A stretch of 64,000 nt of DNA from Cyanobacteriota bacterium (GTDB lineage: Bacteria > Cyanobacteriota > Cyanobacteriia > Cyanobacteriales > Microcoleaceae). The translations under genes and the position numbers were made by a program. The stretch covers positions 1 through 64,000 of the forward strand of contig JANYGO010000158.1 of NCBI GenBank assembly GCA_025362325.1. Reading direction: 5' to 3'. A model generated the notes under the pieces. That model was not told the DNA's origin, searched no databases, and saw only the letters and a program-made list of their open reading frames with translations. Every line of letters begins with the position of its first letter. Position 1 is the stretch's first letter. Below, piece by piece: positions 50,491 through 64,000 of this stretch.

Positions 50491-51495
50491 ATGGGCAACG
50501 ATTCGATTGGTAAGTCTTGGATTGATAAAGATAACAATGGCTCGGCTCCGCAAAGCTGGGTGAGGGCATTTTGGGAGTTTTCTCGGCCGCACACGATTGT
50601 GGGCACTACGTTGAGCGTAGTGGCTTTGTATGCGATCGCCCAAAGCACGCGGTTGTTGGTGAATCCTATATTTTTGCCCCTAGCTTTTGCTTGGTTGGCT
50701 TGCATTTGCGGCAATATTTATATTGTGGGATTGAACCAGTTAGAAGATGTGGAAATTGATAAAATAAATAAGCCGTATTTGCCGATCGCCTCGGGAGCGT
50801 TTTCTCGCAAAACAGGAGAGGCGATCGTACTTGCAACGGGAATTTTAGCAGTTGTGATTGCTGTGTTGCAAGGCCCGTTTTTGCTGGCGACGGTTGGGGT
50901 GAGTTTGGCGATTGGGACTGCTTATTCTCTGCCACCAATTCGGCTGAAACGGTTTCCTTTTTGGGCGGCGCTGTGCATTTTTACGGTGCGGGGCGCGATC
51001 GTCAATTTAGGGCTGTTTCTGCATTTTAATTGGGTGTTGAGCTTGGGAAGGGCGAAAAGTGCTTTCTCTGGCTGGAGTTTGGAGAGTCTGTCTGTGGCGA
51101 TTCCTGCGGAAGTTTGGGTGCTGACGGTTTTTGTGGTGGTGTTCACTTTTGCGATCGCAATTTTCAAAGATATCCCCGACATGGAGGGCGACAAGCAATA
51201 CAATATTACTACGTTTACGATCGAGCTGGGCAAACCCGCTGTTTTTAATTTGTCTCGCTGGGTGTTGACGGTTTGTTATTTGGGCGCGACTTTGGCCGGA
51301 GCACTCGTGTTGTCTAACGTTAATTTAGTGTTTCTGGCAGTTTCTCATTTGGCGGCTTTGGGTTTGATGTGGTTTTGGAGCGCTAAAGTTGATTTGGACG
51401 AGCAAAAAGAAATTGCTGATTTTTATCAGTTTATTTGGAAGTTGTTTTTCTTGGAATATCTGATTTTTCCAGCAGCTTGTTTGTTGGGTAGATGA
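50491..51495 (+). CDS. Homogentisate phytyltransferase (VTE2-like)
   Basis: FSRPHTIVGTTLSVVALYAIA, IYIVGLNQLEDVEIDKINKPYLPIASG, FAIAIFKDIPDMEGDKQYNITTFTIELGK. Confidence 0.9.
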   Translation: MGNDSIGKSWIDKDNNGSAPQSWVRAFWEFSRPHTIVGTTLSVVALYAIAQSTRLLVNPIFLPLAFAWLACICGNIYIVGLNQLEDVEIDKINKPYLPIASGAFSRKTGEAIVLATGILAVVIAVLQGPFLLATVGVSLAIGTAYSLPPIRLKRFPFWAALCIFTVRGAIVNLGLFLHFNWVLSLGRAKSAFSGWSLESLSVAIPAEVWVLTVFVVVFTFAIAIFKDIPDMEGDKQYNITTFTIELGKPAVFNLSRWVLTVCYLGATLAGALVLSNVNLVFLAVSHLAALGLMWFWSAKVDLDEQKEIADFYQFIWKLFFLEYLIFPAACLLGR

Positions 51496-51779
51496 AGGAA
51501 GTTCGGCAGCGGATGAGTGTAGCGGATGTAACGGATGTAACCGATGGATTTTGAGAAACAAGGAAAGAGGGAAGAAGGAAGGAAGAGTTAACAGATTAAA
51601 ATAAATTGGTAAGTAAGTCATTGCGAAAAAACAATAGTATTTTGTAGGGGCGGGTTTAGCTAAAAATCCATGATACCAACCAGCTTATGAAGGCAAAACC
51701 CGCCCTCCCCATAAGAATGTTTATTTGTACCCACCTACTCGATCGCAAGTTAGCGAACTCCCAAACAACAAAGACAACT

Positions 51780-54700
51780 ATGGCTTCTAAAAAAAAATCG
51801 CAAAAACTAGCCGTCAAACTGGATGTAGAAGACTCTTTGAACATAGCTTGGGAACATCACCAAGCGGGGCGTTTGTTAGAAGCTGAGAATTTGTATCGGC
51901 AAATCGTAGAAGTGCAGCCGGAATTAGCAAATGTGCTGTGTTTGTTGGGAATAGCGCTGAGACAGCAGGGAAAAGTTGCTGAGGCGATCGACTTTTACGA
52001 TCGCGCGATCGCCCAAAACCCGGATTTTGTTGAAGCACATTTAAACAAAGCCCATGTTTTGATGGATGTCGGCGAAAGTCACAGGGCGATCGCCAGTTAC
52101 GAACAAGTCATCAAAATTCAGCCAAATTCCGTACTAGCATACAATAACTTGGGCTGGCTCAAACAGCAAGTCGGCGACATAGACTCGGCAATTTTATATT
52201 ATCAAACAGCGCTCAGGCTTGACGCCAACCTGCTCGAAACAGCGCACAATTTAGCAAGAATATTTACACAAAAAAATCACTTAAACGATGCAGTCGCCTG
52301 TTACAGGCACGCTTTACAAATTAATCCCAACTTGATATATTCTCTCATTGGTTTGGGAAGAGTTTTGCAGCAGCAAGGTCAATTAACTGAAGCTTTCAAC
52401 TGCTACCAACAAGCTCTAGAAATAAAACCAAACAATCCCGATGCTCAGAACAATGTGGGAGCATTTTACCACGAACAAGGCAATACAAAAGCAGCAATCT
52501 CGCATTACCGAGAAGCATTGAGATTAAAGCCGGACTTAGTGGATGCTATTAACAACCTCGGACACGCTTTGGTAGATGTAGGAGAATTTCAAGAGGCTTT
52601 TTGGTGTCACTGTAGAGCCTTGGAATTGCAGCCCGACAACGCCATCGCACACTTGGAATTAGCTTTAACTTTGCTGTTGTTTGGAGATTACCAGCGCGGT
52701 TTTGCTGAGTACGAGTGGCGGTGGCGCACTCCACAACTACAACCGAGACAATTTCAACAGCCGCTTTGGGATGGTGCAGATTTGCACTTTAAAACTATTT
52801 TACTGCACGTCGAGCAAGGCTTCGGCGATTCGATTCAGTTTATTCGCTACGCGCCGATACTGCACAGCCGAGGTGCTAAAGTTATGGTGGCTTGCTATCC
52901 AGAATTGATGCGGTTGTTTGCGACTGTTGTCGGCATTGAATATTTATCAGTTAGTCTTGAAGGTTTGCCAGCATTTGATGTTCACGCGCCGCTGATGAGT
53001 TTGCCGAGAATTGTGGGGACAACTCTGGAAACAATTCCGGCAAATGTTCCTTATTTGAGTCCGCCTGCTGAGTGCAAGTTTGCGCTTTCTTCTGATGCAA
53101 ATCTGAAGGTAGGGATTGTTTGGGCGGGGAGTCCAAAACGGCGGAAAGACAATCAACGCTCTTGCAGTTTAAGCGATTTTATTCAATTCTTGGATGTGCC
53201 GGGAATTGCTTTTTATAGTTTACAAAAAGATTTATCCGAGGGCGATCGCACTTTGCTCAATCAGCACCTAGTACCGGATTTGAGCCCGCACCTGGACGAC
53301 TTTGCTGATACGGCTTCGGCGATAGCTCAACTGGATTTAGTGATTACTGTCGATACCTCCGCGGCGCACTTAGCCGGTGCTTTGGGAAAACCCGTTTGGG
53401 TGCTGCTTTCTTTTGCTCCTGACTGGCGCTGGCTGCTGGAGCGCGAAGACAATCCTTGGTATCCAACTGCAAGGCTTTTTCGCCAAAGTCAGCCGGAAAG
53501 TTGGCAAGAATTGTTTGATGAAGTGCACGCGGCTTTGAGTTTATTTGCGATCGCCAATACGGATACTTATGCCGAGGATTTGGCGCCAAATCTGCCGCTG
53601 ACAATGACTCTCAATCATACGGCTTCCCTCGATGCGACAGCGCTGGAAATGACAGGCGCCAGTGAGAGCAAACAAATATTTTTGACAGCGGGCGAAGCGG
53701 TAGCTAATCGCTCCGCAGTCAAGCAATTGCAGGGAATTGAGGCATCTGCGGCGATCGCAAATTCCGTCGTGTTAGAGAATTTATTGCGGCAAGCCGAACA
53801 TTTAATGGAAACAGGTGATAAGCAAGAGGCGATCGCCCTTTACGCACAAATCATCTCTCTGGAACCAAATTGCGTGCAAGCGCGGATTAATTTTGGTTTT
53901 CTCAAACAAGAAAATGGCGAGTTAGATGCAGCTATTCCGCATTACCGAGAAGCTTTAGCGCTCGATCCAAATATTCCTCAAACAGCTTACAACTTGGCAC
54001 AGATTTTTGAGGAAAAAGGTCAAGTCGAAGAGGCGATCGCACATTACGAACAAGCTCTTGTTGCTGAACCGGATTTCGTGCCCGCACTGATTAATTTAGC
54101 GGTGGCGCTGCAAGAAAAAGGCGAGCTGTTAAGGGCGATCGATCTGTATCGGCGAGCGCTGGAAATTCAGCCGCATAGCTGGGAAGCTTACAACAATCTG
54201 GCCACAGTGTTGCAAGAACAGGGGAATTTAGAAGAGGCGCTGGAATATTACCACAAAGCTCTGGAATTGCTACCGGATTTTGTGGAAGCAATCAACAATT
54301 TAGGCAGGACTTTTCTAGAAAAAGGCGCGGTGCAAGATGCGATCGCCTGTTACAAACGAGCGATTTATTTGAATCCAGATCATGCGAGCGCTCACCTGAA
54401 TTTGTCCTTGGCTTTGCTATTGGTGGGAGATTTGAAAAATGGTCTCGCCGAATACGAGTGGCGCTGGCAAATTAAAGAATTTCAAACCGGACATTCCTGT
54501 TTTGTGACGGGGCCGGAAAACAACGTTTCGGCAAGAGAATACCGGCCGCTGTGGGATGGTTCCGATTTGCAGGGAAAGACTATTTTGCTGCACGCCGAAC
54601 AAGGTTTGGGCGATTCAATTCAGTTTATTCGTTACGCTGCGATCGTCAAAAATAAAGGCGGTAGGGTAATTGTTGGCTGTTATCCGCAAGTGCAGCGCTT

Positions 54701-57700
54701 GTTTGCAATGGTTGATGGGATTGATTTGCTCGTAGTTAGAGGCGAGCAGCTACCGGAATTTGACCTGCAAGTGCCGATGTTGAGTTTGCCCTATGTTCTC
54801 GGTACAACGCTGGAAACAATCCCGGCAAATACTGCTTATTTATCCTCGCCTGCGGGTGCTGAATTTGCACTTTTGCCCGATCGCAATTTGAAAGTTGGGA
54901 TTGTCTGGGCGGGGAATCCCAAACACCGCAAAAATACCCAGCGTTCTTGCAGTTTGAGTCAGTTTATGCCGCTTTTGGACGTGGCGGGGGTAACTTTTTA
55001 CAGCTTGCAGAAAGAGCTGTCCGAGACCGATCGCGGGCTGCTGCATCAAACGCCGATCGTCGATTTGAGCCCGCATTTTGGCGATTTGGCAGATACTGCT
55101 GCTGCGATCGCCAAACTGGATTTAGTGATTTGCGTCGATACCGCTGTCGCCCATTTGGCGGGCGCTTTGGGCAAACGGGTGTGGATTTTGCTGGCGTTTT
55201 CCCCGGATTGGCGGTGGTTGTTGGAGCGGGAAGACAGTCCTTGGTATCCGACGGCGCGACTGTTCCGCCAGCAGCAGCGGGGCGACTGGGAACCTGTTTT
55301 CGCTCGGGTGGCGCAAGCTCTGAGCAGCCTGGTTTCCGCAGCACCTGCGCTGTCGGATGCGGCGGATGCGGAGTTTCGCTCGGGGCGGGATTTGCAGCAG
55401 CAGGGCAATTTTGGCGGTGCGATCGAATGTTACGAGCGGGCGATCGCGATCGCTCCCAGTTATGCCGCCGCCCACAGCAATTTGGGCGTTGTCAAACAGC
55501 AAAGCGGGCGCTTGACAGAGGCGATCGCGCACTACAGGGAAGCGCTAGAAATCGATCGCAATTTGGCGGAAACTGCGAGCAATTTGGGTAGCGCGCTGGC
55601 GGAAGCAGGGGAGACAGCAGGGGCGATCGCAGAATACGAGCGGGCGCTGTCTTTGAACCCGAATTGCGCGGAAGCACTGGTTAATTTGGGCGTGCTGCGG
55701 GAAGAGCAAGGAGAGGTGGAGGTGGCTATCTGGTGCTACCAGCAAGCGGTTCAGCTAAATCCAAATTGCGCTGCGGCTTATTTTAATTTGGCAATCGTGC
55801 AGGAGGAACAAGGCCGGGAAGCGGAATCGATCGCGAATTACGAACGGGCGATCGCGAATTACGAACGGGCGATCGATCGCGAGCCAAATTATTTCCACGC
55901 CTTGCACAACTTAGCATACGCCTCGATCCGCCAGGGCAAAATTGCTCGCGCGATCGAATTTTACGATCGCGCTCTGGCGCTGCAACCGAATTTAGCAGCA
56001 TCTGCGATCGCTTTGGGGAATTCCCTGCAACAGCAAGACAAGTTAGATGAGGCTCTAGCCGTTTGTCAGTTGGCGATTCGGCATTCGCCCGAAAACTCTG
56101 AGGCTCGGTGTATTTTGGGCCTTGTGCTGTACAAACAAGGGAAAATTGAAGATGCGATCGCCTGCTATCAGCAAGCTTTGAGTCTGAAACCCAACTTTCC
56201 AGAGGCTTTGAACAATCTCGGTAAAGCTTTTGAGGAAGCGGGAAAAATGGCAGAGGCGATGGAATTTTACCGTCGCGCGATCGAACTCAACCCAGGCGAT
56301 CTCAATAGCCTCAACAGTTTGGGAACTGCTTTGCACGATCGCGGCGAATTTGATGCTGCTGTCACCTGTTACAGTCAAGCAGTAGAATTTAATCTCGCCA
56401 CCCCGGAAGCTCATCTAAATTTAGGTTTAGCACTGCTGCTGGCGGGAGATTTGCAGCGCGGTTTTTCCGAGTACGAATGGCGGCTGCTGGTTGAACAAAA
56501 ACAGTTTCCCCATCACAACTTTCACCAGCCGCTTTGGGACGGCAAAGATTTAGCAGGAAAAACAATTTTGCTTTGCCCGGAACAGGGCTTGGGCGATGCA
56601 ATTCAGTTTGTCCGCTACGTAGAGTTAGTCAAGCAAAAAGGCGGCAGGGTAATTTTTTGGTGTTTGCCGCACTTGGAGCGGTTGTTTGCCCAAGTTTCAG
56701 GAATTGATCAGTTAATCGTCAGCCCAAAAGCTGCACCGGATTTTCAACTGCGCGCGCAGCTATTGAGTTTGCCGTATCTCCTCCAAACAACTTTAGAAAC
56801 AATCCCGGCAAAAGTTCCTTATTTAGCTCCGCCGCCGGATTTAGAATGTTATTTGCCTGAAAATTCTCAATTAAAAGTGGGAATTGTTTGGTCGGGAAAT
56901 CCCAAACATTCACAAAATAAAGTGCGATCGTTACCGCTAAAGTTGCTGTCAAAACTGTTAGATATTCCCGGAGCAGAATTTTACAGTTTGCAAAAGGAAC
57001 TTACCGCAGACGATCGCGCTTTGTTAGAGCAACTGCCGATCGCAGATTTAAGCTCTCATTTGCACGACATGGCGGATACTGCGGCGGCCATTTTGGCTCT
57101 GGATTTAGTGATTTCTGTAGATACTTCTGTGGCGCACTTGGCCGGTGCTTTGGGCAAACCTGTGTGGGTGTTGCTGTGTTTTGTGCCGGATTGGCGGTGG
57201 ATGCTGGAACGCGAAGATAGTCCTTGGTATCCGACGGCGCGCTTGTTTCGCCAGTCAGCAGCGGGGGATTGGGATGGAGTTTTAGAACGGGCTATTTTGG
57301 CGCTGAAATCGAGAATTTTCCAGCATCAAGAAGCTCTACTGCCAATAGCAACTCAGCCAAATATTGAGTTGGCTAAGAAACAGTTCGATCGCGGAAATCT
57401 GCTGAAATCGCAAGGAAAATTAATCGAGGCGAGATCGTATTTTAAGAATGCTTTGGTTTTGCAGCCAGATTCGATCGAGTCCGCTACTAATTTAGCAGTG
57501 ACGCTGCACCAAACAGGCGATTTAGCCGAAGCTGCTGTCTATTATCAGCGCGCGATCGAAATCGACCCGAACTGCCCTCAAGCGCAAAATAACCTGGGAA
57601 TTTTGCTGCAAGATAGCGGCCGTATCGCCGAGGCTGCCTTTTGTTTTCAACAGGCGATCGCCCTAAATCCGATTTACGTCAAAGCCATCAACAACCTCGG

Positions 57701-60700
57701 CGCGACACTTCAGCAGCAGGGCGAGTTACAAAGTGCGATCGCCTATTTTCAGCAAGCACTTTCCATCAATGGCAATTACGTGCCAGCGCTGTTAAATTTG
57801 GGCGTGGCGATGCAGGCAAAATCTCAGCCAGCAGACGCAGAAAGGCTTTACCAGCGAGCGATTGCAGCCGAACCAAATAATTCTAAAGCACACTATCACC
57901 TGGGAAATTTATGCTTGGCTGCGGGCAAAATAGAACAGGCAATTTCTAGCTTGGAACGAGCCATATTATTGCAGCCAAATTATGTAGAAGCACTGAACAA
58001 TTTAGGCAGTGCTGTCGAACAAATGGGAGACCTGAAGCGTGCGTTTTCGTGTTACAATAAAGTCCTGGAGCTTGATGCAAATTGTGTTAAAGCTCACTTC
58101 AATTTAAGCTTAATTTTGCTGTTAGCTGGAGACTTGGCGCGCGGTTTAGCAGAATACGAGTCGCGCTGGCAAACTGAACAGGCGAAAAACTTGCCGCGGT
58201 TGAATTTCGAGCGACCGATTTGGGACGGTTCAGATTTGAACGGACAAACTATTTTGCTCCGCTGCGAACAAGGTTTGGGCGATGCCATTCAATTTGTGCG
58301 CTACGCAGCAATTGTGCAGCAAAAAGGCGGCAAAGTCATCATTTCTTGCTATCAAGAACTGAAGCGTTTATTTAAGCAGATTCCTGGCATCGAACAAGTG
58401 GCGGTGCGGATGGACGAATTGCCTGATTTCCAATTGCAAGCACCGCTGATGAGTTTGCCGCATATTCTGGGAACAAATTTAGAAAATATACCCGCAAATG
58501 TTCCTTATTTAGCTGCGCCGCCGCATTGGCAATTTTCGCTAAATTCCGATGACAATTTCAAAGTTGGGATTGTGTGGGCGGGAAGTTCGGAACATTTGAA
58601 GGATTTTCAGCGCTCGCTCGATTTAAGCTATTTCCTGAAATTGTTAGATATTCCCGGCGTAAGTTTTTACAGCCTTCAGAAACAAGTGTCGGCGGGCGAT
58701 TTAACTTTGTTAACTCAAATTTCCGTAAGAGATTTGAGCGACAATTTGAACGATTTTGCCGATACTGCGGCGGTGATCTCGCAACTAGATTTAGTCATTT
58801 GCGCGGATACGGCTGTCGCCCATTTGGCGGGTGCTTTGGGCAAACCGGTATGGATTTTGCTGTGTTTTATGCCGGATTGGCGGTGGATGTTGCACCGCGA
58901 AGACAGCCCCTGGTATCCTACCGCGCGGCTGTTTCGCCAGCAAACACCGGGCGATTGGGATGGAGTGTGCGATCGCCTAAAAACCGCCTTACAAGAATTA
59001 ACAACCTCATTTTTTGCCAGTCAAGGGCTACAACCCCCAAGCGCGATCGCTCCCAACGCCATCACACAAATTGACATACAGTTTCACATAGCAAATGCCT
59101 TGCGAAAAAAAGGTAAAAAAGCAGACGCCGCCGCGCGCTACCAACAAGTAATCGCCGCCTCGCCCAGCCACGCTGAAGCCCACAGTTATTTAGGTTATTT
59201 CAAACAGGAAAACGGGCAAATAGCCGAGGCAATTTTGCACTACCAACAAGCGCTAGAAACAAATCCCCATCTCGGCGAAACAAATTTGTATTTAGGTTGC
59301 GCCCTCGAAGAACAAGGAAAATTTGTCGAGGCGATCGACTGCTACAATAAAGCAATTAAACTATGCCCAGAATCACCGGAATCGCATTTGAGATTTGCCT
59401 TAGCTTTGCTGTTAACTGGGAATTTTCAACAGGGTTTCCTGGAGTACGAATCGCGCTGGCAAACTCAAGAATTGGAGCCGAGATATTTCGCACAACCGCT
59501 GTGGGACGGTTCTGATTTGCACGGAAAAACAATTTTGCTCCACCCAGAACAAGGTTTGGGCGATACCATCCAGTTTGTCCGCTACGCGCCTTTAGTCAAG
59601 CAAAAAGGCGGCACAGTTGTTGTGGCTTGTCATGTCTTGCTGAAGCGTTTATTTGAAGGAATAGCCGGAGTCGATCGCGTAGTAGTGCGCCCCAGCGAGT
59701 GCGTGGATTTTCAAGTGCAAGCGCCGCTGCTAAGTTTGCCGCGAATTTTGGCAACAACTTTAGAAAATATACCCGCGAATATTCCTTATTTAGCTGCGCC
59801 GCCGGATGCGAAATTTTCCCTAGAAGCGCACAATCAACTAAAAGTCGGCATTGTCTGGGCGGGCGGCCCGCTGCACCGCAAGGATCGCGAGCGATCGTGC
59901 AAATTCAGCGATTTTGTGAAGTTTTTAGATGTTCCGGGAGTGAGTTTTTACAGCCTTCAGAAAGATTTGTCGGCGGGCGATTCCAGTTTATTAAATCAAC
60001 ACCAAATTCAAGATGTAAGCGAACATTGCATCGATTTTGCCGACACCGCGGCGATTGTTTCGCAACTCGATTTAGTCATTTGTGTGGATACTTCTATTGC
60101 TCATTTAGCCGGTGCTTTGGGCAAACCGGTGTGGATTTTACTGTCTTTCGTCCCCGATTGGCGCTGGATGCTCGATCGCGAAGACAGCCCTTGGTATCGC
60201 ACTGCGCGCCTGTTTAGGCAGTCAAAACCCGGTGATTGGGATGGCGTGTGCGATCGTATCAAAGCAGCCCTAGAACAGCTAATTACCCGTTCCCAGGCTC
60301 GTTCCCAGGCAGAGCCTGGGAACGCATATCCAGAGGCTCTGCCTCAAAATCCCCTCCCAGAAACCCCGCCACAAATAACCGGAATCGGAATTAGTTGGCC
60401 GCTCAGCATCACCAGCGGCTGGGGAATTTACGGCATGAATTTAACACTGCAACTGCTGCGAAATCCCGCCTGGGAAGTAGCACTTTTAGTCCCGCCATCC
60501 ATCACCTCAGAATCGCTCAATCCGCTGCACAAATCCCTGTTATTACCCCTAATAGAAAAGCAGAAAAATTTTCAGGAATTAGTAACCGCGAATTATGACA
60601 AACAAATAGCTTGCAACTTTCCCGTACTTTACGGTTTGGGGAATAATTTAGTATCGTCGGGAGTTGAGAATCAAATTACCAGCGCTTGTCAAGTAGGAGT

Positions 60701-61568
60701 CATATTTTTTGAAGACACGCGCATCACAGCAGAAGCAGTAGAAAAAGCCAAACAATATAGCGTGATTGTCGCCGGTTCTAACTGGAATGCGGATGTTTTG
60801 AGAAGCTGCGGCTTGACTAATGTGGCAATGGTAAATCAAGGAATTGACCCGGCAATTTTCCATCCTGCACCTAAATCTAATCTATTTGGCGATCGCTTCG
60901 TCATCTTCTCCGGCGGCAAACTCGAATATCGCAAAGGACAAGACATTGTAATTGCCGCTTTCAAACAATTTCGCGCCAAACATCCCGAAGCTTTGTTAGT
61001 AACAACCTGGCACAACTTCTGGCCTCAGTATATGCTAGGAATCGAACAAACCGGAAACGTTGCGGGACTTCCCAATATCAACCGCGACGGAAGTTTAAGA
61101 ATTTCCCAATGGTTGGCGGCTAACGGTTTGCCGGTTGACTCTTTTATCGACATCGGCTTAATTCCCAATCACCTCGCCGGACAAATTTTGCGAGAAGCCG
61201 ACTGCGCTGTTTTCACCAACCGCTGCGAAGGCGGCACTAATTTAGTGGCAATGGAAAGTATGGCCTGCGGAATTCCGACTATTTTATCAGCAAATACCGG
61301 ACATTTAGACTTGATTTACAGCAACATTTGCTATCCTTTATCGCATCAGAGACGGGTTAAACCCACTGCTCATTTTCCCGGTGTGGAAGGTTGGGGAGAG
61401 TCTGATGTTACAGAAGTTGTCGAGGCTTTGGAGCAAGTTTATAATAATCGCGAAGAAGGGAAACGTCGAGGTTTAGCAGCGGCTAATTTTATGCTCGATT
61501 GGACTTGGGAAAAACAGGTTAAGCGCTTTCTTGATGTTATATTAAATCTGAGATCTGACGGCGGTTGA
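51780..61568 (+). CDS. Giant multi-module TPR / glycosyltransferase-like protein (five TPR-GT modules plus C-terminal GT4-like domain)
   Basis: Uninterrupted ORF. GT-like units at ~52640-53545, 54385-55330, 56405-57310, 58085-58990, 59380-60275, each with WDGxxLxGKTILLxxEQGxGDxIQFxRY, LKVGIVWxGxP, LDLVIxxDTxxAHLAGALGKxVW and DWRWxLxREDxPWYxTARLFRQ. C-terminus GISWPLSITSGWGIYGMNLTLQLL ... FTNRCEGGTNLVAMESMACGIPTILSANTGH. Start at ATG 51780 preferred to 51687. Confidence 0.92.
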   Translation: MASKKKSQKLAVKLDVEDSLNIAWEHHQAGRLLEAENLYRQIVEVQPELANVLCLLGIALRQQGKVAEAIDFYDRAIAQNPDFVEAHLNKAHVLMDVGESHRAIASYEQVIKIQPNSVLAYNNLGWLKQQVGDIDSAILYYQTALRLDANLLETAHNLARIFTQKNHLNDAVACYRHALQINPNLIYSLIGLGRVLQQQGQLTEAFNCYQQALEIKPNNPDAQNNVGAFYHEQGNTKAAISHYREALRLKPDLVDAINNLGHALVDVGEFQEAFWCHCRALELQPDNAIAHLELALTLLLFGDYQRGFAEYEWRWRTPQLQPRQFQQPLWDGADLHFKTILLHVEQGFGDSIQFIRYAPILHSRGAKVMVACYPELMRLFATVVGIEYLSVSLEGLPAFDVHAPLMSLPRIVGTTLETIPANVPYLSPPAECKFALSSDANLKVGIVWAGSPKRRKDNQRSCSLSDFIQFLDVPGIAFYSLQKDLSEGDRTLLNQHLVPDLSPHLDDFADTASAIAQLDLVITVDTSAAHLAGALGKPVWVLLSFAPDWRWLLEREDNPWYPTARLFRQSQPESWQELFDEVHAALSLFAIANTDTYAEDLAPNLPLTMTLNHTASLDATALEMTGASESKQIFLTAGEAVANRSAVKQLQGIEASAAIANSVVLENLLRQAEHLMETGDKQEAIALYAQIISLEPNCVQARINFGFLKQENGELDAAIPHYREALALDPNIPQTAYNLAQIFEEKGQVEEAIAHYEQALVAEPDFVPALINLAVALQEKGELLRAIDLYRRALEIQPHSWEAYNNLATVLQEQGNLEEALEYYHKALELLPDFVEAINNLGRTFLEKGAVQDAIACYKRAIYLNPDHASAHLNLSLALLLVGDLKNGLAEYEWRWQIKEFQTGHSCFVTGPENNVSAREYRPLWDGSDLQGKTILLHAEQGLGDSIQFIRYAAIVKNKGGRVIVGCYPQVQRLFAMVDGIDLLVVRGEQLPEFDLQVPMLSLPYVLGTTLETIPANTAYLSSPAGAEFALLPDRNLKVGIVWAGNPKHRKNTQRSCSLSQFMPLLDVAGVTFYSLQKELSETDRGLLHQTPIVDLSPHFGDLADTAAAIAKLDLVICVDTAVAHLAGALGKRVWILLAFSPDWRWLLEREDSPWYPTARLFRQQQRGDWEPVFARVAQALSSLVSAAPALSDAADAEFRSGRDLQQQGNFGGAIECYERAIAIAPSYAAAHSNLGVVKQQSGRLTEAIAHYREALEIDRNLAETASNLGSALAEAGETAGAIAEYERALSLNPNCAEALVNLGVLREEQGEVEVAIWCYQQAVQLNPNCAAAYFNLAIVQEEQGREAESIANYERAIANYERAIDREPNYFHALHNLAYASIRQGKIARAIEFYDRALALQPNLAASAIALGNSLQQQDKLDEALAVCQLAIRHSPENSEARCILGLVLYKQGKIEDAIACYQQALSLKPNFPEALNNLGKAFEEAGKMAEAMEFYRRAIELNPGDLNSLNSLGTALHDRGEFDAAVTCYSQAVEFNLATPEAHLNLGLALLLAGDLQRGFSEYEWRLLVEQKQFPHHNFHQPLWDGKDLAGKTILLCPEQGLGDAIQFVRYVELVKQKGGRVIFWCLPHLERLFAQVSGIDQLIVSPKAAPDFQLRAQLLSLPYLLQTTLETIPAKVPYLAPPPDLECYLPENSQLKVGIVWSGNPKHSQNKVRSLPLKLLSKLLDIPGAEFYSLQKELTADDRALLEQLPIADLSSHLHDMADTAAAILALDLVISVDTSVAHLAGALGKPVWVLLCFVPDWRWMLEREDSPWYPTARLFRQSAAGDWDGVLERAILALKSRIFQHQEALLPIATQPNIELAKKQFDRGNLLKSQGKLIEARSYFKNALVLQPDSIESATNLAVTLHQTGDLAEAAVYYQRAIEIDPNCPQAQNNLGILLQDSGRIAEAAFCFQQAIALNPIYVKAINNLGATLQQQGELQSAIAYFQQALSINGNYVPALLNLGVAMQAKSQPADAERLYQRAIAAEPNNSKAHYHLGNLCLAAGKIEQAISSLERAILLQPNYVEALNNLGSAVEQMGDLKRAFSCYNKVLELDANCVKAHFNLSLILLLAGDLARGLAEYESRWQTEQAKNLPRLNFERPIWDGSDLNGQTILLRCEQGLGDAIQFVRYAAIVQQKGGKVIISCYQELKRLFKQIPGIEQVAVRMDELPDFQLQAPLMSLPHILGTNLENIPANVPYLAAPPHWQFSLNSDDNFKVGIVWAGSSEHLKDFQRSLDLSYFLKLLDIPGVSFYSLQKQVSAGDLTLLTQISVRDLSDNLNDFADTAAVISQLDLVICADTAVAHLAGALGKPVWILLCFMPDWRWMLHREDSPWYPTARLFRQQTPGDWDGVCDRLKTALQELTTSFFASQGLQPPSAIAPNAITQIDIQFHIANALRKKGKKADAAARYQQVIAASPSHAEAHSYLGYFKQENGQIAEAILHYQQALETNPHLGETNLYLGCALEEQGKFVEAIDCYNKAIKLCPESPESHLRFALALLLTGNFQQGFLEYESRWQTQELEPRYFAQPLWDGSDLHGKTILLHPEQGLGDTIQFVRYAPLVKQKGGTVVVACHVLLKRLFEGIAGVDRVVVRPSECVDFQVQAPLLSLPRILATTLENIPANIPYLAAPPDAKFSLEAHNQLKVGIVWAGGPLHRKDRERSCKFSDFVKFLDVPGVSFYSLQKDLSAGDSSLLNQHQIQDVSEHCIDFADTAAIVSQLDLVICVDTSIAHLAGALGKPVWILLSFVPDWRWMLDREDSPWYRTARLFRQSKPGDWDGVCDRIKAALEQLITRSQARSQAEPGNAYPEALPQNPLPETPPQITGIGISWPLSITSGWGIYGMNLTLQLLRNPAWEVALLVPPSITSESLNPLHKSLLLPLIEKQKNFQELVTANYDKQIACNFPVLYGLGNNLVSSGVENQITSACQVGVIFFEDTRITAEAVEKAKQYSVIVAGSNWNADVLRSCGLTNVAMVNQGIDPAIFHPAPKSNLFGDRFVIFSGGKLEYRKGQDIVIAAFKQFRAKHPEALLVTTWHNFWPQYMLGIEQTGNVAGLPNINRDGSLRISQWLAANGLPVDSFIDIGLIPNHLAGQILREADCAVFTNRCEGGTNLVAMESMACGIPTILSANTGHLDLIYSNICYPLSHQRRVKPTAHFPGVEGWGESDVTEVVEALEQVYNNREEGKRRGLAAANFMLDWTWEKQVKRFLDVILNLRSDGG
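60289..60346. repeat. Dispersed repeat family B copy inside the giant ORF
   Basis: GTTCCCAGGCTCGTTCCCAGGCAGAGCCTGGGAACGCATATCCAGAGGCTCTGCCTC, near-identical to 37815-37862; translated as RSQARSQAEPGNAYPEALPQ. Confidence 0.88.
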
Positions 61569-61790: not shown

Positions 61791-64000
61791 TTATTTCTTT
61801 TGAAACCAGACTCCTGTTTCATCAATAGTATGCAGAGAAAATGACTCGCCTTTCATCCTCTCAAAATCGTGTACTGCTTGCTTGCAGCCCTCCCAGTGCC
61901 CGTAATCATCAACCTGAATCAAACCGTTAGCAATCACGCTGTCATAAAGCGTATTAAATATATCCATTGTGGACTCATACCAATCTCCATCAGCGTGCAG
62001 AAACGCAATACTTCCTATTGCTGACTTGTATGGGGGTAAAGTCTCGGCAAATAATCCCTTAACTGGTACCACAATATCTTTAACTTGCAGTAATTCACAG
62101 ATTTTATTTAAATTTTCACTAATTGCAGCTTTGAGAGTTCCTTCGCCGAAATCAGTAAGATTTGCAGGTATTCCCTGATGTTTATCGATCGCAGTAGGTG
62201 CGGGCATTCCTTCAAACGTATCAAAAGCATACAGCACTCTCGGACGGCGGCTGTAATGTTTGATTACAAATGCCATTAACGCGGCTGAACCGCCTTTGCA
62301 AGTTCCGCATTCAACAAAATTTCCCGGCAAATCTTCCACGCATATTTGCTTGGTCAAACAATACAGAGAAAACAGTCTCGATTCGCTCAGCAGCGTGTAG
62401 GGGCGGACAATAGACAAGATATTTTTAAAGTTTGCAGGAGAAGTTTGAACTGACGATTTGCTGCTTTGAATAATTGTCTGGTAATTATGCTGTGGTAGGG
62501 TTGGCAACTCTTTGATGGCTGAAATACCGCTGACGGCATAACCGTACAAATGTGCTGGTAACTGCCAAGAAATATGGGGATCAGGTTGATGTTTGACTGG
62601 CGCGAAATTTCCCCGCCAAGCTGCCCCCATAATTTGCATTGTTTGATATATTACCGTTTGCCATCCCCTTTGTTTCAAGTAATCTAAACCCTTAGCTACA
62701 GCGGGAGCTGCTAAATCGTGAAATAAAATTATTGCATCTTCTTCAGCCAATTTTTCGCAGGCGATGGCATCATTTAATGGCCCATCACCTTCGTGTTCTC
62801 CGTCAATAAAAATTAACGACCATTTGCGGTTAAATTCGTTTGCTAATGCCTCTACTCTCTGAGGGCTATAACCGGGTACTAGCTTGACGGAAGTTTGCAC
62901 GCCAGACGCATTGAGAGCACCTTGAATTGAATCTATGACACTTTGTCTGATACTCTCGGTTTCTAACAGCGGATCGACGACATCTAATTCAACTCCGGCG
63001 AGGGCTAAGTGACACGCAGACCATCCCAGCCAACAGCCTATTTCTAAGGCTTTTTTGCCTGGAAATTGCAGGGCTGTATTGTAAAGGATGTGCGCTTCGT
63101 CGCGGCTGAGAAATCCGACTGAACTCGCACGGCGATCGACATACCAATTGTGCGGTATTTCTCGGCGCAGGTAAGGCCACGGACAAGTATTGGTATCGCC
63201 AACAATCATGTTAGGAAAGTACGCATCTGGGAGGATAATTTTCAATCCGGGCGACACGTAATCTCCGGCGGTTAACAAAGTATTGTTTGTGATTTCAGAT
63301 GGTGGTTGTACTGTTTTTAATTGTGGAGATACTGGGCGTTGTATGGGTTGGTAGCGGAGACTAATTTCTACTTGATTCCCGTCGGTTGTTGCTAATTTTA
63401 CTAAGTCGTGCTTGTGACCGGTGATGTGCAGAATGCCGATCGCCCCGTGCGGCAAATACGGCTCCACAAAACAGGCTTGCTGCTTGTCCCAGACGGGCAA
63501 ACCAAAGTTGCAGCTCCAGTTACAGCGAGCGGGCAGCATCTCGGTGCGATCGAACATTTCAGTGCCGTAAACCAACCGATTCAAAGCTATTTGGTCAGTC
63601 ATCAAAGAAACGTGCCGCTGCAATCCCTCTTCCAGATATTCCGCCCAAAGTTCCCAGTGCGGCGCGTCTTTGTGCAGCGCGAAAACACCTGCATTTAGAG
63701 TTGGGTAGCTGTGCAACTGTTTGGCGACTTCTTCCCCAAAAACTGCTTGATAATCGCGGTAAACAAATTCCCAGTACCAAGGCAATTTGCCGTAAGCTAA
63801 ATAATAGCCTCTGTCCAATTCTGGCACAACTGCCAAACCCCGTTTTACCGCGCCTTTCACGAACAATTCAACAGCTTGCCAATCTTGCACCCAAGCATCG
63901 GCATCTATCCACAGGTAGATGTCAAAATTAGGAAAGTATCTGCGTAGACACGGACGCGCCAAAAGTCCTTTGAGATAGTGAGGCGCTTCATTTTTCCCGG
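61791..64000 (-). CDS. Glycosyltransferase-SAM methyltransferase-TylF/MycF-like methyltransferase fusion, N-terminus beyond the window
   Basis: Reading open to the window end (…PGKNEAPHYLKGLLARPCLRRYFPNFDIYLWIDADAW). KKALEIGCWLGWSACHLALAG...LIFIDGEHEGDGPLNDAIACEKLAEEDAIILFHD; C-terminal GNFVECGTCKGGSAALMAFV...VLYAFDTFEGMPAPT...FLHADGDWYESTMDIFNTLYDSVIANGLIQVDDYGHWEGCKQAVHDF. Confidence 0.88.
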   Translation of the reverse strand, partial: GKNEAPHYLKGLLARPCLRRYFPNFDIYLWIDADAWVQDWQAVELFVKGAVKRGLAVVPELDRGYYLAYGKLPWYWEFVYRDYQAVFGEEVAKQLHSYPTLNAGVFALHKDAPHWELWAEYLEEGLQRHVSLMTDQIALNRLVYGTEMFDRTEMLPARCNWSCNFGLPVWDKQQACFVEPYLPHGAIGILHITGHKHDLVKLATTDGNQVEISLRYQPIQRPVSPQLKTVQPPSEITNNTLLTAGDYVSPGLKIILPDAYFPNMIVGDTNTCPWPYLRREIPHNWYVDRRASSVGFLSRDEAHILYNTALQFPGKKALEIGCWLGWSACHLALAGVELDVVDPLLETESIRQSVIDSIQGALNASGVQTSVKLVPGYSPQRVEALANEFNRKWSLIFIDGEHEGDGPLNDAIACEKLAEEDAIILFHDLAAPAVAKGLDYLKQRGWQTVIYQTMQIMGAAWRGNFAPVKHQPDPHISWQLPAHLYGYAVSGISAIKELPTLPQHNYQTIIQSSKSSVQTSPANFKNILSIVRPYTLLSESRLFSLYCLTKQICVEDLPGNFVECGTCKGGSAALMAFVIKHYSRRPRVLYAFDTFEGMPAPTAIDKHQGIPANLTDFGEGTLKAAISENLNKICELLQVKDIVVPVKGLFAETLPPYKSAIGSIAFLHADGDWYESTMDIFNTLYDSVIANGLIQVDDYGHWEGCKQAVHDFERMKGESFSLHTIDETGVWFQKK

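Follow-up and report, generated by a model that had tools for sequence, protein, structure and literature searches.

The locus studied here raises the question of why several glycosyltransferase (GT) active sites are carried on one polypeptide chain. To our knowledge, the glycosyltransferases guided by tetratricopeptide repeats (TPRs) that have been described so far contain one such unit per chain. In the 64,000 nucleotides of DNA that were analysed as a whole (the window), a single gene of the filamentous cyanobacterium Microcoleus encodes five TPR-GT units and ends in a glycosyltransferase domain of another type. The gene, its parts and its two neighbours are as follows.

50491..51495, + strand: UbiA-family prenyltransferase gene, upstream neighbour and marker of the conserved slot, not claimed as part of the system
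51780..61568, + strand: whole gene, 5 x (TPR array + GT9-like GT-B domain) + GT4 domain, 3262 aa
51834..52760, + strand: unit 1 TPR array, approximate bounds
52761..53561, + strand: unit 1 GT domain
53800..54545, + strand: unit 2 TPR array, approximate start
54546..55361, + strand: unit 2 GT domain
55362..56528, + strand: unit 3 TPR array, the longest of the five, approximate bounds
56529..57329, + strand: unit 3 GT domain
57330..58214, + strand: unit 4 TPR array, approximate bounds
58215..59027, + strand: unit 4 GT domain
59028..59495, + strand: unit 5 TPR array, the shortest of the five, approximate bounds
59496..60308, + strand: unit 5 GT domain, modelled together with its TPRs (pLDDT 93.1)
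60351..61565, + strand: C-terminal GT4-type glycosyltransferase domain
61791..64000, - strand: convergent neighbour with Methyltransf_24 and TylF methyltransferase domains, running past the window end, a possible partner

The frame is open from position 51660 onward, and its stop codon ends at 61568; an alternative upstream ATG at 51687 would yield a product of 3293 aa. In an alignment of 22 orthologs, however, conservation begins at MAS-KK, encoded from the ATG at 51780, and therefore we place the start there, which agrees with the single uninterrupted ORF of about 3260 aa that the original prediction had set at the same coordinate. The five TPR-glycosyltransferase modules that it had described in one chain are indeed present as collinear units, and a search of the host genome found no GT-unit copies beyond these five. 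Units are carried by 28 of the 29 Microcoleus genomes searched, and in most of these a single frame of about 3130-3380 aa contains all five; the genome that lacks them is 84% complete. The same five-unit array is present in two single-contig congener genomes and also in the complete chromosome of Microcoleus vaginatus HSN003, while in some draft congeners it is fragmented or its frames are split. The few draft genomes with split frames are what would speak for an assembly artefact or an array of pseudogenes, and the chance of this is negligible: recurrence in most congeners and in single-contig or complete genomes is explained neither by chance nor by misassembly, and the identity among the five GT units (55-67% for protein, 61-73% for DNA) is too low for assembly copies. 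The gene is real, old and kept by selection.

Its age is indicated by a maximum-likelihood tree of 154 GT units, which includes 35 Microcoleus units from seven species. Each of the positions U1 to U5 forms one clade across the seven species (SH-aLRT 99-100) and all 35 units together form one clade (SH-aLRT 99). The duplications are therefore older than the Microcoleus radiation, and the five positions have not been homogenised since. A phylogeny of the units had been proposed together with the original claim of serial duplication as opposed to an assembly artefact, and the separate position clades, along with the five units found in single-contig genomes, bear this claim out. In the same tree the units of Trichodesmium, Okeania and most of Hormoscilla cluster by lineage. 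Lineage-wise clustering is also seen, with weak support (76), for the units of the genome G082. Such clustering outside Microcoleus suggests separate expansions, although an older array that was later homogenised would look no different.

The array occupies the same genomic slot across the congeners. On its upstream side lie a methyltransferase gene and the UbiA-family prenyltransferase gene, which look like tocopherol genes and serve here as slot markers, not as claimed partners. Downstream, most loci that reach far enough contain the convergent methyltransferase-domain gene and a tetrapyrrole methylase-HemD fusion. The convergent gene, which continues to position 7295 of L043, encodes about 370 N-terminal residues without a Pfam match, then Methyltransf_24 and then TylF; it is kept in the slot, but its length differs among the congeners and TylF is present in only some of them. 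A WIDADAW motif in its N-terminal part could perhaps belong to a glycosyltransferase.

TPRs precede each of the five GT domains, which are about 267-272 residues long, and make up about half of the chain; among the Microcoleus orthologs the length of each TPR array is typical of its position. The chain does end, as predicted, in a different domain, and this domain is of the GT4 type by profile, fold and conserved residues alike: its last ~400 residues match Glycos_transf_1 (PF00534) with 45.5 bits against a cut-off of 26.4, the best structural matches of its model (pLDDT 77) are the GT4 enzymes PimA, BshA and PimB', with HepE also similar, and both glutamates of the pair in EGGTNLVAME are invariant in 22 sequences.

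The GT domain of the repeated unit is less easily placed. Its only match in Pfam and NCBIfam is to GT9 heptosyltransferases, over 33-48 residues. The GT9 profile PF01075 matches 39 of the 43 units scanned, but not over most of its length; in unit 5 of the window the match covers only profile positions 173-205 of 247 (24.3 bits, cut-off 22). Alignment by hhalign with four E. coli GT9 enzymes extends over 47 columns (probability 95%, E 1.9e-8), which correspond to the donor-binding Asp-Thr-x3-His region. This region and perhaps a GD motif close behind the first strand make up the likeness to WaaC and WaaF: in the GT domain the aspartate of the GxGD motif comes after strand one, like Asp13 of WaaC, a correspondence matched by eye only, and the matching residue of TibC, Asp110, is a candidate catalytic base (PMC4358343). 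Judged by these alignments, the domain appears to resemble GT9 heptosyltransferases at the donor site only.

A GT41 match was absent from the Pfam scan of the 43 units, as was OGT from the matches to the GT part in a PDB profile search. PDB searches revealed no solved structure that matches the GT part by sequence; the sole hit of the GT profile, a ferritin, is spurious. The model of unit 5 comprises a TPR superhelix followed by the GT domain, and its best PDB matches are SPINDLY (SPY) and OGT, protein O-glycosyltransferases of family GT41 with the same order of TPR superhelix and GT-B domain. As the TM-score is about 0.3, these matches support the TPR-then-GT-B plan and not membership in GT41, and it is largely the TPRs that drive them. 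SPY and OGT differ from the units described here in that their GT shows no sequence match, the global superposition is poor and each chain contains a single GT.

The original prediction had allowed that some of the five units are non-catalytic, and on this point the conservation data speak against it. In an alignment of 368 family units, in which some genomes are represented twice, near-invariance is seen at columns that include G20, G22, D23, R29, W121, R133, D198, T199 and H203 as well as W222-R-W, W233-Y and R241-Q. All five units of the window keep the near-invariant columns, including GxGD and DTxxAHLAGALGK, and degenerate units were rejected on this ground. Substitutions occur at columns slightly less strict than the near-invariant set: in unit 5, R replaces P in PWYPT (PWYRT, 60192-60194), where 98% of the 368 units have P, and in unit 2, R replaces P in GKPVW. 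Each of the units has a dN/dS of 0.12-0.28 relative to three congeners, i.e. it is under purifying selection, and thus all five sites of the Microcoleus array are kept by selection. It is therefore very unlikely that the protein is a TPR scaffold whose GT domains, all or most of them, only bind partners or sugar nucleotides and catalyse nothing, however well the large share of repeated TPR arrays in the chain would suit such a role.

Whether the five units do the same thing was approached through 110 Microcoleus units from 22 species, in which 78 of the 271 alignment columns can be called invariant, with more than 98% identity. When a strict position-specific column was defined as one that is fixed to at least 90% at each of the five positions and has a minimum of three states among them, only two were found, column 16 (H/H/C/R/H from U1 to U5) and column 128 (R/R/S/L/R); a looser cut gives 27. 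Both strict columns lie near conserved motifs in sequence, EQGxGD and R133, and U1, U2 and U5 have identical states at both. This pattern leans towards a shared chemistry of the five units, with position-specific tuning of units 3 and 4 as a possibility.

The explanation that we tentatively prefer, with a likelihood that falls somewhat short of even, is a cytoplasmic TPR-guided glycosyltransferase with multiple active sites, comparable to FlmG and OGT, whose acceptor is probably a protein and whose GT4 domain adds a different sugar. Each TPR superhelix would bind the acceptor, most likely a polypeptide with multiple sites, and present it to the following GT-B domain, which would transfer a sugar from a nucleotide-activated donor onto it. 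The GxGD aspartate would be the probable general base and the DTxxAH region would hold the donor. Five units with the same or similar chemistry on one chain could modify several places or act in quick succession, and the GT4 domain could add a further sugar by a different type of enzyme. The motifs kept in all five units, the selection on each of them, the invariant columns and the donor-site alignment are consistent with such catalysis, and the unit 5 model with its SPY and OGT matches points to the same plan, even if the TPRs drive these matches and the GT9 likeness is confined to the 47 aligned columns. A close analogy is FlmG of Caulobacter crescentus, a TPR-GT whose TPRs bind the flagellin acceptors; in cells that make pseudaminic acid it is both required and sufficient for flagellin O-glycosylation (PMC7591256). 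It has an N-terminal TPR and a C-terminal GT-B domain, as the unit 5 model does, and its size of about 600 aa is that of the single-unit relatives found here; compared by domain plan, FlmG is one unit without GT4, whereas the Microcoleus gene has five units and GT4. The WaaC-like protein heptosyltransferase TibC (BAHT) demonstrates that an enzyme of this kind can modify protein (PMC4358343). However, TibC has an N-terminal beta-barrel where the unit 5 model has TPR helices, and for its iron finger or ring we know of no counterpart in the Microcoleus gene.

The analogy with FlmG does not extend to its substrates. FlmG uses pseudaminic acid on flagellin, whereas the host genome (94.9% complete) contains no match to flagellin (PF00669) and no recognised nonulosonate synthase (NeuB/PseI); its only PF03102 match (35.9 bits) is an ORF that resembles DAHP synthase by sequence, as identified by eye. 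Pseudaminylation of flagellin in the manner of FlmG was therefore rejected for this host. Among the relatives, a flagellin gene lies within 10 kb of single-unit genes at six loci, all non-cyanobacterial. At L128, L131 and L142 a single-unit TPR-GT stands beside Maf or Maf-like and CMP-sugar genes, with flagellin present at L128 and L142, and these loci are possible flagellin glycosylation clusters. This neighbourhood would favour a protein acceptor, but flagellin was found near the family members at none of 20 alphaproteobacterial loci, and thus its proximity is not general evidence for one, nor can a link between flagellin and the family as a whole be maintained. The lack of an evident acceptor gene adjoining the Microcoleus array in the neighbourhoods examined also counts against our preferred reading. 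Oscillin and pilin were considered as acceptors and no evidence linking either of them was found.

One could argue that the acceptor is a lipid-linked or free saccharide and not a protein, and that the multi-unit enzyme acts on a glycan of the surface or the sheath. Its GT9-like donor site is reminiscent of the heptosyltransferases of lipopolysaccharide, the GT4 model resembles PimA, BshA and HepE, and the host genome contains an rfaE-II-like nucleotidylyltransferase, just over its curated cut-off, and an rfaE-I-like kinase, below its cut-off, so that a heptose-nucleotide donor is possible. However, arrays of TPRs typically serve to bind proteins, and in the neighbourhoods examined no gene for polysaccharide export or for a polymerase adjoins the array, which makes us regard a saccharide acceptor as rather unlikely. 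It is also conceivable, in line with the assembly-line idea of the original prediction, that donor or linkage varies among the five units and that these act one after another on a tethered acceptor to assemble a defined oligosaccharide, GT4 taking the first or the last step. The five positions form distinct clades of considerable age that have escaped homogenisation within the genus, their TPR arrays have position-typical lengths, columns 16 and 128 are fixed per position close to EQGxGD and R133, and the GT4 domain, which is of another type, always occurs singly and in most cases stands at the end. Yet only two columns are position-specific by the strict definition (27 by the looser cut), three of the positions share the same states at both, and the number of units differs widely between lineages. 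We therefore consider such ordered synthesis unlikely, and it is just as improbable that one polypeptide serves as a glycan assembly line on which lineages change the glycan via the number of modules.

The plan is not confined to Microcoleus. Across cyanobacteria we find GT4-capped arrays of the plan n x (TPR-GT) + one GT4: n = 1 in Roseofilum (L136), UBA2566 (L134) and G161 (L168), n = 3 in the last gene of an Okeania cluster (L070) with seven units spread over three genes, n = 4 in G038 (L076), n = 5 in Microcoleus and Trichodesmium (L071) and n = 7 in a 4169-aa frame of the complete genome G082 (L166). The GT4 of Geomonas was not counted as the same cap, since very long branches separate the two. 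Fusion of 3 to 7 units with a single conserved GT4 cap seems to have taken place separately in several lineages of cyanobacteria. In G161, which belongs to another family, the one-unit version lies immediately downstream of the UbiA gene that also precedes the five-unit gene here (59% identical); this would fit growth of the array in place, and it is only a hint because the grouping of the G161 unit with those of Microcoleus is not clear. The series from n = 1 to 7 offers a natural setting in which to ask why several active sites are carried on one chain, and also whether the order of modules encodes glycan structure in bacteria.

The module itself is widespread in bacteria and already known in databases, where the 'tetratricopeptide repeat-containing glycosyltransferase family protein' is the same module in single-unit and few-unit members, usually one unit of about 500-790 aa, and where plasmid records annotate relatives as TPR or TPR-containing glycosyltransferase proteins. 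Mostly as a single unit, it is present in 79 of 194 sampled cyanobacterial genomes and in 58 of the 144 genomes sampled from an alphaproteobacterial class, and single-unit or few-unit relatives occur in Azospirillum, Nitrospirota, planctomycetes, cyanobacteria and others. What is unusual is the long fused array with its GT4 cap: the five-unit and seven-unit frames are rare, searches of the open-access literature found no paper on the giant fused gene, and the capped series therefore seems to be undescribed. This suggests that Microcoleus and Trichodesmium possess a glycosylation system that has so far escaped description.

Several further arrangements were observed. The complete genome G082 contains eleven units in one region (L165/L166, C1:373001-408000), in the order of the 4169-aa frame with seven units and GT4, a GT2-TPR gene and a 2289-aa frame with four units. 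In Hormoscilla sp. GUM202 (L120) a seven-unit frame of 3695 aa lies beside two further two-unit frames, followed at the contig edge by a GT4 piece in a frame of its own. Two loci of the alphaproteobacterial class sample (L217, L218) have three units fused in about 1660 aa with a single-unit gene adjoining, and thus fusion is not confined to cyanobacteria. Finally, cyanophage and other viral records (ON615601, MW015081/NC_070963, MW202512 and MH319737) contain sequences distantly related to the GT unit, with 26-33% identity.
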